Positions 30,314 to 39,637 of a stretch of DNA of 64,000 nucleotides are shown here, one piece after another. The notes under the pieces were generated by a model. It had not been told where the DNA came from. It made no database searches and was given only the letters and a program-made list of their open reading frames with translations. Each line of letters opens with the position of its first letter. The first letter of the stretch is position 1. The translations under genes and the position numbers were made by a program. Source of the DNA: Spirochaetae bacterium HGW-Spirochaetae-2 (GTDB lineage Bacteria > Spirochaetota > Spirochaetia > Sphaerochaetales > Sphaerochaetaceae); contig PGXW01000018.1 of NCBI GenBank assembly GCA_002839355.1, positions 1 to 64,000 on the forward strand. The letters run 5' to 3'.

Positions 30314-32161
30314 TTACAGCTTTTGAACGAGCGTGAGGAAAAACTGCGTCGGGCGGATATCGTACGTTCCCCAGAACTTCTGGTCTGCCGAAGGTCGAGC
30401 CCTTACCTCGACAACCGCATGGGTACGCAATTTTCGGTACACGAACTCGCTGAATCGGGTGGCGAACACATCGGCATCATCATCCCCAATCTCCTTGAGG
30501 TATGGAAACAGCAGTCTCAACAGTTCTATGGCAAACGTCCGGACAGGAGTCCATTGGTGTCCACTATGCAACAGCAGGAGAAACAGGTAGTTCATCATGA
30601 CCAAAGGTATCGTATCGATCTCGTCGAAGAACGCATAGAACAAATCCTCCAGACTCTCCAGCAAATCCGCTACCCCGATATGTTGTGATCCGTTGGTCAA
30701 TATCTCGAACACGGGAAAAGCAGCCATGGCATCTATCGCGAACAATTCGCTTTCTTCCAATGGCAGGCTCAAGAATTCGTATTCCCGTGATGCGAGCGGC
30801 ACCAATCCAGACAGCTCGAAATCACCCTCGATGGTGGTGATATCGAACATGCCATCGGGAATCTCAGCCCTCCGACTCATATTCTCAATGACGTTCGCCA
30901 ACTCGACCACCAACGCGGCATTCACATCCATGCGTTTGCAACGCGAGTCCAGGTCAAACCGCAACGAGAGTTCCTGTGCGTCGAGGTACTCGTTCAATAC
31001 AGCCCGGGATTTGGCCACATGCTCCAACTCATTGAACAAGTCCTTTGCCATGGGGGTGAATTTCTGTTGCCACGCTCGCCAAGGGCAAGCGAAATCCCTG
31101 ATCTGAGCCGATACGGCAAAAACCGGCAGCGATACACTATTCTGGGGATCGAGGATCTCTTCAGGCTCGACGGCGGGAACAGTCGCAGCCACCAGATGCA
31201 TAAGCGAAATCCACGCCGATTGCGTGCTCGCCAATAGGGCGATGCGTCGGCGCTCGGAATCGATGTACAATGCCGCAATGGCAAACTCGGGAAACTGCCA
31301 ACCGTTTCCCGATTCGTTCGCGAATCGTTGCAACTCGGACGGCACAGGCAATGAACGCATCCGCTTGTCCGGACTATCGAACACCATGCAATGGAAGTTC
31401 CCGCTGCGCGAATGGCGCCATTTCCCCGGTATTTGCTTGGAGTCGAAGCCATCACCAATCGGATACTCATCCCAATAGATATCGATATATTCGTCCTCGA
31501 TCATCGATTCGTTGTGGAATGCGATGGAGTCCAACAGGAGGAAATCGGTGAAGCGTCGGTTTATGGTCTCGGTCATCGAAGTCATATCGAGCGGCGCACC
31601 GGCGTCCAAACCCCCGAAGAAGAACCTGATATCGTCGGAATAGACCGCTGAGAAGGCATGGTGGTAGCCGATCGTCTGGTACTCCTCACCGTTGTGCAGC
31701 ACCAAAGCGATGCGATAGGGAAGCAAGAGGTATTCCTGCTCGTCCACCAGCTTGTGCCTGACGACAAACGGTGTGTCGGTGAAGTCTTCGACCGAAATTT
31801 CGGTCATGGGGAACGATTCCTCCATCGCCACCATGCCATACACCCATTTGGCGGGATTATCGACCAGATGAGACAACAATTCCGCTTGTTCGGAGGACAA
31901 TGCTGATTGGTTCTCCTGCAGGAATACGCCTATCATTGCGGGATTGGCCAGTATCCTTGAAACCACGAATTCGATCCGCTTCTCTGCATACCATTCGGGA
32001 TAGAAGCGGGGCGAACCGGCATCGAATGCCAATGCACCGATCTTCTGGAGACTTGGCGTGAAAAAATCGCGGTCTTCGGCCCAGGCCATCATGAGGGGGA
32101 CCAAGGACCTAACCAGTTCGGAATACCGCTCATATGTTTCGGACGATTGTTTTGGTTTCAT
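30314..32161 (-). CDS. Large unknown protein, about 615 residues
   Basis: I do not recognise the family. The protein is acidic and mostly helical in appearance, with no signal peptide and no clear membrane segment; IPLVMMNYLFLLLLHS near the C-terminus is hydrophobic but short. The middle has a beta-rich part (FHNESMIEDEYIDIYWDEYPIGDG, FAIAALYIDSERRRIALLAS). The C-terminus ends RPTQFFLTLVQKL. The start is uncertain: ATG at 32161, or TTG five codons earlier; the AAGGG seen is too close to the ATG. It stands alone between unrelated genes. Confidence 0.7.
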   Translation of the reverse strand: MKPKQSSETYERYSELVRSLVPLMMAWAEDRDFFTPSLQKIGALAFDAGSPRFYPEWYAEKRIEFVVSRILANPAMIGVFLQENQSALSSEQAELLSHLVDNPAKWVYGMVAMEESFPMTEISVEDFTDTPFVVRHKLVDEQEYLLLPYRIALVLHNGEEYQTIGYHHAFSAVYSDDIRFFFGGLDAGAPLDMTSMTETINRRFTDFLLLDSIAFHNESMIEDEYIDIYWDEYPIGDGFDSKQIPGKWRHSRSGNFHCMVFDSPDKRMRSLPVPSELQRFANESGNGWQFPEFAIAALYIDSERRRIALLASTQSAWISLMHLVAATVPAVEPEEILDPQNSVSLPVFAVSAQIRDFACPWRAWQQKFTPMAKDLFNELEHVAKSRAVLNEYLDAQELSLRFDLDSRCKRMDVNAALVVELANVIENMSRRAEIPDGMFDITTIEGDFELSGLVPLASREYEFLSLPLEESELFAIDAMAAFPVFEILTNGSQHIGVADLLESLEDLFYAFFDEIDTIPLVMMNYLFLLLLHSGHQWTPVRTFAIELLRLLFPYLKEIGDDDADVFATRFSEFVYRKLRTHAVVEVRARPSADQKFWGTYDIRPTQFFLTLVQKL

Positions 32162-32282
32162 ACCCTTGTATAACAATACGGACAGCCATATGCAACAGTC
32201 CGATTCTGTTTTTTTGTCCGAATCTTCCGCAACCGGCGAATATCACTTGTACAGGAGCGGCCTTCTCTGTCATTATCGGGCC

Positions 32283-33188
32283 ATGGAACTCATCATAGGC
32301 CAACTGCTCGCCCTGGTCACCGCGCTTTGTTGGGCACAAAATTCCTTGATATATGCACATGTCGGGGCACAAGTCAGCTCCAACACCACCGCCCACATCC
32401 GAATCTGGATCGCCTTGCCGCTCATGCTGCTGGTGCACCTGGTATTCGAGGGCACGTTGTTTCCCATTGGCATGGATACCTATTCATTCGTGTTGATCGG
32501 ATTGTCGGGTGTGTTGGGATTTTGCATCGCCGACTTGTTCATTTTCAGTTCGTTTGTCCATATCGGTGCCCGCCAGACCATGGTGATCATGACCACCAGT
32601 CCCCTTTTCGGGGCCTTGCTCGCGTGGGTTTTTACGAATGAAGTGCTCACTCCGCTACAGATAACCGGCATGGTGGTGACATTGCTCGGTGTCGCGTGGG
32701 TTGTGCTCGCCGACCGCAGTTCCGGAGTCGCAGGCGACCGGCGCAAGATATTCAAGGGAATTGCGATAGCCCTGGGTGGTTCGTTGACACAGGCAATCGC
32801 CTATGTCATGGCCGACAAGGGAATGACCGAGAGTATCCCCGCAGTCTCGGCGAATGTGGTGCGGTTGACGTTCGGTTTGGGTGCACTCATCGTGTTCGCT
32901 ACCGCACGCAAATCGTTTGTGCGCGACTTCTCGCGTTTCACCGGCAAGGCAGGCCACAAGGCGTTGGTGCTGATCTTGCTGGCGGCGATCGTGGGTCCGG
33001 TCCTCGGTATCATATTGAATCTCCAGGCATTGAAGATGGCTCCGGTCGGGGTGGTGACAACCCTCTCCCAATTGACTCCGGTCATGCTGTTGCCACTGGA
33101 GAAATTCGTCATGAAACGGCATATAACCCTCTCTGCGGTCATCGGTACGCTGGTCGCAGTCGCAGGCTCGGCCCTTCTGTTTATCTGA
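32283..33188 (+). CDS. EamA-family (DMT) membrane transporter
   Basis: A 301-residue protein with ten hydrophobic segments arranged as two EamA repeats. The first begins MELIIGQLLALVTALCWAQN; the second starts near IFKGIAIALGGSLTQAIAYV. Repeat ends show the typical P-L-F-G-A-L-L-A-W-V-F and LSQLTPVMLLPLEKF patterns. The ATG at 32283 opens the first repeat; upstream frame is not DMT-like. It probably exports a metabolite or amino acid. No partner gene is visible. Confidence 0.85.
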   Translation: MELIIGQLLALVTALCWAQNSLIYAHVGAQVSSNTTAHIRIWIALPLMLLVHLVFEGTLFPIGMDTYSFVLIGLSGVLGFCIADLFIFSSFVHIGARQTMVIMTTSPLFGALLAWVFTNEVLTPLQITGMVVTLLGVAWVVLADRSSGVAGDRRKIFKGIAIALGGSLTQAIAYVMADKGMTESIPAVSANVVRLTFGLGALIVFATARKSFVRDFSRFTGKAGHKALVLILLAAIVGPVLGIILNLQALKMAPVGVVTTLSQLTPVMLLPLEKFVMKRHITLSAVIGTLVAVAGSALLFI

Positions 33189-33247
33189 GATGGACAAACC
33201 GTCCACAGTGATTTATCATTGACTATCCACCAGGAGAATGCATTATT

Positions 33248-34435
33248 ATGGAACACACGCTCTCGTACGTCTTCGTAACCCCGTACACGATTGCAAAGAG
33301 TAGGACAGGCGGCGTTGTCAGCCGTCTGCTCAGCCGACTCGACCTGGAGCTGGTCGGAGCCCAGATGATCGCGGCCGACGCTTCGTTCACCTCGGCATAT
33401 GCAAAAATCCTCAAGGACCAGGACGACCCATTGAACCCGGGAGCTTCAACACTTTTAAGCACGTATGTGGAGAACAATATCGGACCTACGGGAACGAGGG
33501 CCCACAGGACACTCATGCTGCTGTTCAGGGGAACCGATGCGTGCAAGAAATTGAGCGACATCTGCGGAGCGTTGTATCCGGAGAACCGTAGCGTCGAATC
33601 GTTGACCGGTGAGACCATCCGCGACACCTATGCCGATTTGATCGTGGATCCGAAGAATCCCAAAAAGGTCACGTACTTCGAACCGGCGGTATTCACTCCC
33701 CGCAACCAGGTGCACGCCGACAAGGTGCTCACCTTGCTCGCGGATTGGCTTCCGGGACAACCGAACATCATCGAGAACGTGATATATCCGAATCCGGAGC
33801 ATATCGAACGGACGTTGGTGATCATAAAACCGGACAACTGGAAATTCGCATCGTCCAAACCGGGTACCATCATCGACATGTTCAGCAGGACAGGCCTGCG
33901 GATCGTGGGCATCAAGGTCCACCGCATGTCGATTTCCGAGGCTCTTGAATTCTACGGTCCGATGCGCGAGTCGTTGAAGCAGCGGCTCGCCCCGGTGTTC
34001 GGCCACAAGGCCAAGGACCTGCTGGAGGAACAGTTCAAGATCCGCCTTTCCGAACAGACCGAAACGGTGCTCGCCAACACTGTCGGTACCGAATATGCCG
34101 CGGACCAATTCGAACAGATTGTCGAGTTCATGAGCGGCCAGCGTCCATCGGTGTGCAAGTTGGAGGAGATGATCGAGCCCGGTACAGTCAAATGCCTGAT
34201 CATGGTCTACGAAGGCGAGCATGCGACCCAGAAGATTCGCGACGTGTTGGGTCCAACCGACCCATTGAAAGCTCCCAGCGGAACGGTACGGCGCGAATTC
34301 GGCAGCAATATCATGGAGAATACGGCACACGCTTCGGCCTCGGTCGAAAAGGCCTTGCGGGAGATGGGTGTGGTCCGCTTCCACTCGAATCCATGCGCCG
34401 AGATCATCCGCTCCTACCTGAACATGCGCAAGTGA
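33248..34435 (+). CDS. Two-domain nucleoside diphosphate kinase (degenerate N-terminal copy, intact C-terminal copy)
   Basis: A 395-residue protein. Residues about 187-370 hold an NDK domain: ERTLVIIKPDNW with the ATP-binding Lys near 194, a central helical insertion, and GTVRREFGSNIMENTAHASA with the phospho-His near 360. Residues about 5-150 repeat the same plan (SYVFVTPYTIAKSRTG, HRTLMLLFRG, LTGETIRDTYADL), but the Lys and His are gone, so this half looks catalytically dead. Normal NDKs are about 140 residues. The enzyme balances NTP pools; the first half may be regulatory or structural. Confidence 0.8.
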   Translation: MEHTLSYVFVTPYTIAKSRTGGVVSRLLSRLDLELVGAQMIAADASFTSAYAKILKDQDDPLNPGASTLLSTYVENNIGPTGTRAHRTLMLLFRGTDACKKLSDICGALYPENRSVESLTGETIRDTYADLIVDPKNPKKVTYFEPAVFTPRNQVHADKVLTLLADWLPGQPNIIENVIYPNPEHIERTLVIIKPDNWKFASSKPGTIIDMFSRTGLRIVGIKVHRMSISEALEFYGPMRESLKQRLAPVFGHKAKDLLEEQFKIRLSEQTETVLANTVGTEYAADQFEQIVEFMSGQRPSVCKLEEMIEPGTVKCLIMVYEGEHATQKIRDVLGPTDPLKAPSGTVRREFGSNIMENTAHASASVEKALREMGVVRFHSNPCAEIIRSYLNMRK

Positions 34436-38425: not shown

Positions 38426-39637
38426 CTAGAGTTTCAGGTCGGGATTCCCAGCACCGAAATGCTTGAGGATCACGATCGGGTCAGACTTGGACGGGTTGGT
38501 GATCCGTACCCCGGCCTTCGCCGCATCCTCGCTGACGAAGTACTCGTCGTAGGTCAGTTGTCCGAACCTGATCAGCGCTGGAGTCTCTATGTCCCACGTG
38601 CCGAACGTCCCGTGCCCCTGTACCAAGTACATGCCGTAGGCGGCACTGTCGGTTATGGTCACAGATGTTCCCGGAAACACCGTCAGCTCCTTCGCGCTGA
38701 ACGCACCCGATTTGTACACGACCCACTTCTCTTCATACCCCAATTCACGCATTTCCTCAATGGGTCGTACTGGCTTGGGTGCCATGAACCGGTGTTCGGC
38801 GAACAGCGGATCGACGTTCACCTCCCAGTCGATCACATCCAGCAGGTAGTCGTAGTCGCCAACCTTATCCTGCGGAGTATTCTTCCATAGCAAATCCTCC
38901 CCGATAATCGCATCGTTGACCAAGGACTGGTACATCGCGAACACGTCCGAAGCCATCTGCGGTTCATAGGTGCACAAGCTGCCCGGCGCGTGCAATACCC
39001 CCGGCGGTACGTCCCAACCGGTGCCGGGCACCAAACGGTACGCCGTCGACAGGTCGGTGATCTTGTTGTCCCCGTGGGTGAAGTTCATCAGCGCCTCCTT
39101 CACCTGCTCCCGGGTCACCCCGGGTTGCAATCCGAAGAAGGTATAGGGGAAATCGCCTCCGTGGTTGTTCAATTGGGGCGGGAAATAATAGGCCTCGGGT
39201 TTGCCCATGGCCCCCACCTTTGCGGCGTGCTCGTCGCGGTGGTGGATATGGTGCGGTAGCGGTCCCTTGTTGTCGAAGAACTTGGAGAACATCGGCCACT
39301 TGCCGAACTGTTTCCAAAGACGATCCCCGATCAGGGCTCCCTTGAGTTCGTCGACCGCATCCCGTAGCAGGAATTGCTTCGTCTGGCCCTTGTCCTCGAA
39401 CACACAGAAGCTCAGTCCCTCGAACTCGCCGGTCAGCGGACCGTTGTCCGCGGGTGTCGTGGAGCTGAACCAACGCTCGTCGATACCGCCACGGTTCCCT
39501 CCCAACGCATAATAATCGTCCGGATGCAGCTTGATCCGCCGCCCGGGCACACAGAACGAACGGGGAACCCAGTTCGGTGCCAACCTGAATATGCCCTTGC
39601 CTTGCTCGAATGCCGCTTGAATGTCACTTTTACTCAT
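38426..39637 (-). CDS. Cupin-fold sugar isomerase-like protein (phosphomannose isomerase superfamily)
   Basis: A 403-residue protein with two cupin-like halves. The first has the metal-site pattern [14 protein letters not shown] (near residues 126-139), followed by [11 protein letters not shown] and [20 protein letters not shown], as in type I mannose-6-phosphate isomerases. The second half ([24 protein letters not shown]) is a typical C-terminal cupin barrel. It lies between the sugar ABC permease gene and the LacI-ulaE pair, so it most likely isomerises the imported aldose, perhaps to L-xylulose or L-ribulose. This is inference from context; no member with this architecture is known to me by function. 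Confidence 0.65.

Follow-up and report, generated by a model that had tools for sequence, protein, structure and literature searches.

The window, a stretch of 64,000 nucleotides from the genome of Spirochaetae bacterium HGW-Spirochaetae-2, carries a gene for a double-length nucleoside diphosphate kinase (NDK). An earlier note on this DNA had placed the coding region here, and it is indeed a genuine open reading frame (ORF), opening with ATG behind a likely ribosome-binding site (Table 1). The whole chain scores 101 bits against the Pfam NDK family, while none of the NCBIfam NDK models matches it at cut-off (95 versus 155 bits for the equivalog). A Pfam scan found no DM10 domain in the protein, and the NDK fold of the N-terminal half begins already at residue 3-4. 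Neighbouring genes in the window were considered as an operon clue and set aside, as they belong mostly to sugar metabolism and transport and include no nucleotide gene. An EamA gene (32058-33188) precedes the tandem gene, and in a Sphaerochaeta genome two adjacent tandem-NDK genes lie downstream of an EamA transporter gene (L138:722-4251). A convergent gene for an FKBP-type isomerase adjoins the tandem gene in many relatives, with no evident meaning. Elsewhere in the window, a 620-aa ORF (30314-32176, -) has no Pfam or PHROGs match, and a 403-aa ORF within a sugar-metabolism cluster (38426-39637, -) has no Pfam match at 0.001.

Table 1. Features of the tandem NDK gene (window coordinates; residue numbers refer to the 395-aa chain, K12, H118 and D121 to canonical NDK positions)
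Feature	Position	Strand	Basis
Tandem NDK gene, 395 aa + stop	33248..34435	+	ORF and profile matches
AGGAGA, likely ribosome-binding site	33232..33237	+	sequence, 10 nt before ATG
N-terminal pseudo-NDK half, residues 1-170	33248..33757	+	model, fold search, weak Pfam match
Linker, about residues 171-185, variable	33758..33802	+	model and alignment
C-terminal NDK half, full catalytic set, residues 186-395	33803..34432	+	Pfam 89.7 bits, invariant residues
Thr11 replacing ATP-site Lys (K12)	33278..33280	+	Thr in 53, Ser in 5 of 58
Residues 18-40, equivalent of NDK alpha1/beta2 dimer interface; within the N-half's most conserved stretch	33299..33367	+	alignment, entropy tests
GETIRDTYAD, residues 121-130, near-invariant block at Kpn/beta4 place	33608..33637	+	alignment, conservation
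Val133 replacing phospho-His (H118)	33644..33646	+	variable in relatives, His absent
Lys194 (K12)	33827..33829	+	58/58
Lengthened alphaA-alpha2 helical hairpin, helices 229-263 and 269-296, with insertion of about 45 residues	33932..34135	+	model pLDDT mostly 85-95; alignment gap
His361 (H118, phospho-acceptor)	34328..34330	+	58/58
Ala364 at D121 site	34337..34339	+	alignment; Asp in 52 of 58

Taken alone, the N-terminal half reaches 16.7 bits against Pfam NDK (PF00334), which is under the curated cut-off of 27 bits. Structure prediction had been named as the check on whether this half is an NDK fold at all, and according to its model it is. The AlphaFold model of the N-half, built from 18 sequences, has a pLDDT of 81.4; all 50 best PDB matches of this model in Foldseek are NDKs (E 3e-6), and VIA-align gives Z 14.1 over 129 residues. 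The elements predicted for it come in the same order as in an NDK (beta1, alpha0, alpha1, beta2, alphaA, alpha2, beta3, alpha3, beta4), after which the model adds an extra strand and a helix. In hhalign the N-half profile is co-linear with canonical NDKs along its whole length, at E 2.7e-5 over 121 columns. As the earlier note had claimed, the NDK layout is kept and the ATP-site lysine and the phospho-histidine are lost: in an alignment of 58 sequences all carry Thr or Ser at the K12 position, and the H118 position is variable and never His. R88 and T94 are also missing, and Asp stands at N115. The equivalent of R105 depends on the alignment, as R125 is invariant and yet lies about five positions off when aligned without gaps.

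The C-terminal half scores well over the Pfam cut-off, and its residues K12, Y52, R88, T94, R105, N115, H118 and E129 are each invariant in the 58 sequences. The lysine and histidine which had been assigned to this half are Lys194 and His361. From this residue set we infer that the C-half is catalytically active and that the chemistry resides there. The helical insertion reported to split the active domain is borne out by the model and by a gap against canonical NDKs: about 45 residues lengthen the alphaA-alpha2 hairpin, so that the predicted helices measure 35 and 28 residues, alphaA and alpha2 being short in a normal NDK. There the hairpin adjoins the nucleotide base. Asp121, which belongs to the active-site loop, is Ala in the window copy. 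Ala is also found in L019, a 94% relative of the window copy, and in L037 and L040, and Ser in L038 and L065. The second tandem copy of the window genome retains Asp at this position, which points to paralogue divergence.

Of 296 genomes sampled from the phylum, 10 carry full-length homologues, and these 10 belong to a single class; the N-half profile finds homologues in 65 of 296 closer relatives. The open frames that hold the profile matches are about 390-430 aa long, and the N-half is fused in complete genes; a few frames are shorter or matches partial, several of them at contig ends. A standalone or divergent N-half was sought, and the sole weak candidate, not counted above, turned out to be an ordinary NDK gene of 171 aa in another genome, G531, which the profile had retrieved with E 1.3e-7. 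Carriers include Sphaerochaetaceae, termite-gut Treponema MAGs, Gracilinema, Breznakiella and others. The tandem NDK was found only in Spirochaetia, the search outside the phylum being limited; scanning genome contigs with short patterns from the C-half gave spirochaetes only among the best 80 of 392. Phage or plasmid carriage was rejected: the matches were ordinary NDKs aligning over the C-half alone, viral contigs gave nothing and there was no PHROG. The tandem NDK is an old family, retained in many of the families that make up the class. In a tree of both halves all N-halves form one clade and all C-halves another, a pattern consistent with a single fusion. The earlier note had spoken of an NDK fused to a dead copy of itself. 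This holds for the fold; for descent by internal duplication the tree gave an AU p of 0.53 for the sister relation of the halves and a length of 4.8 for the N branch, and we do not treat the relation as established.

The window genome contains two tandem copies (the second at C2:21320-22498, 66% identical), and a canonical NDK gene was not detected in it. Among 81 Sphaerochaetaceae genomes that are at least 90% complete, 24 hold the tandem form only, 9 the canonical form only and none both; the remaining 48 show no PF00334 NDK. Chance alone would give this zero overlap with a probability near 0.03, a figure that makes no correction for shared ancestry. The tandem form appears to replace the ordinary NDK in this family. 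Such replacement is not general, since four of the ten tandem genomes in the phylum sample also hold a canonical NDK and six do not.

Both halves are under purifying selection, with dN/dS of 0.02-0.20 in the N-half and similar values in the C-half; in one pair the C-half of the window copy evolved faster than the N-half (0.125 versus 0.025). The dimer-interface positions published for M. tuberculosis NDK (PMC7554756) have N-half equivalents whose conservation exceeds that of randomly chosen positions in this half (entropy 0.49 versus 1.17, P 0.003). The same test gave no excess conservation for the active-site equivalents of the N-half, and the published trimer-interface positions, as a set, are not conserved beyond chance in this half. 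Within 3-42, the residues outside the interface come close to it in conservation (entropy 0.62), so the effect is partly regional and gives support, not proof. Residues 5-40 exceed the C-half core average in conservation. A near-invariant cluster of the N-half lies outside the dimer interface, made up of P12, Y13, K17 and R19 in alpha0, E122-D130 at the Kpn/beta4 place and E145-P146-A147; it could be a rebuilt pocket or serve other contacts.

The full-length AlphaFold model, a single chain, has a pLDDT of 84.9 and a pTM of 0.84, with the Kpn-loop of the C-half (residues 338-357) below pLDDT 50. Its best whole-chain match in Foldseek is NME7/FAP67 (7ung_5, E 3.6e-10), a eukaryotic tandem NDK found in cilia and in the gamma-tubulin ring complex, and the match covers both halves. 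VIA-align scores the full chain against NME7 at Z 22.2, with 269 residues aligned between model residues 1 and 382, and single NDKs at about 15. Because both halves match NME7 together, well above single NDKs, the predicted domain arrangement is NME7-like, and the halves would be packed like a canonical NDK dimer, the unit from which every NDPK oligomer is described as being built (PMC7554756). The suggestion that an internal pseudo-copy could replace subunit contacts gains support from this two-domain match and from the partly regional interface conservation of the N-half.

We consider it probable that this double-length bacterial NDK is an internal, covalent pseudo-dimer of one live and one dead half. 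The C-half would run ping-pong phosphate transfer through His361, together with Lys194, Arg331, Thr337, Arg348 and Asn358. The N-half, its chemistry lost, would stay permanently attached and supply the contacts given by the second subunit in normal NDKs, so that a single active site would serve two folds. This form appears to stand in for the ordinary NDK in Sphaerochaetaceae. Besides acting as permanent partner, the N-half may possibly form a regulatory pocket. A regulated NDK, in which the rebuilt dead pocket recognises a nucleotide or some other signal and thereby controls the live half, is compatible with the pseudo-dimer and differs in the main role of the N-half. The near-invariant cluster, unexplained by a dimer interface, and the high conservation of residues 5-40 speak for it, but structural or higher-order contacts could also account for these residues, and we regard control as the main role as a tentative alternative. 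Somewhat more speculative is the combined proposal of an independent bacterial NME7 layout: an obligate one-site pseudo-heterodimer within one chain that has taken the place of the ordinary homo-oligomeric NDK throughout a bacterial lineage, with a dead half that controls NTP supply as an allosteric sensor.

It is doubtful that the protein has left nucleotide metabolism to serve mainly as a scaffold or protein-histidine kinase, as proposed for NME7. That NME7 is the closest whole-chain fold would fit such a role, as would the D121A change and the faster C-half of the window copy; many relatives, moreover, show no NDK, so that NDK seems dispensable there. However, the catalytic residues of the C-half are all invariant, even where the tandem protein is the only NDK found. 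The low Pfam score of the N-half could suggest a decaying gene or a chance resemblance, a reading we regard as practically refuted by the conservation seen in many families of this class, the low dN/dS and the fold match. The reading of the protein as a covalent pseudo-dimer is the one we prefer.

NDK is usually described as requiring assembly of identical subunits for its function. A naturally occurring pair of folds in one chain, of which one is dead, offers a defined one-site unit for testing the role of the second subunit. It also gives NME7, whose dead domain cannot be dispensed with but is poorly understood, a counterpart in bacteria. Annotation is affected as well: the tandem protein does not reach the cut-offs of the NCBIfam NDK models, and in many Sphaerochaetaceae carriers no other NDK is seen. 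We found no published description of a bacterial tandem NDK in the open-access literature.

Among known systems NME7/FAP67 is closest in layout. FAP67 consists of a DM10 domain and two covalently linked NDPK monomers (PMC7554756); in NME7 the first NDK domain is active and the second dead (PMC13256974, PMC7024210), and the incompetent domain B is nonetheless indispensable beside the competent domain A (PMC13256974). One chain with two NDK folds, one active and one dead, in similar relative placement is also what our predicted model depicts. The order is reversed, however, with the dead half first in the spirochaete chain; DM10 is absent, and the live half carries a long hairpin insertion. An association with microtubules or the gamma-TuRC would not be expected of a bacterial protein. 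In sequence, the live C-half matches best with the first NDK domain of NME7. Given the reversed order, the missing DM10 and this alignment, we read the likeness as convergence and not as membership, and the tandem layout is probably an invention independent of NME7. The canonical bacterial NDK (PF00334), of about 140 aa and usually a tetramer or hexamer, shares the fold and the catalytic set of the C-half; the tandem protein differs from it in its double length, its dead N-half and its hairpin insertion. The NDKs of Borrelia burgdorferi (4di6) and Pyrobaculum aerophilum (1xqi) likewise have longer-than-usual chains among the structural matches, but they are single-domain proteins of 166-195 aa.
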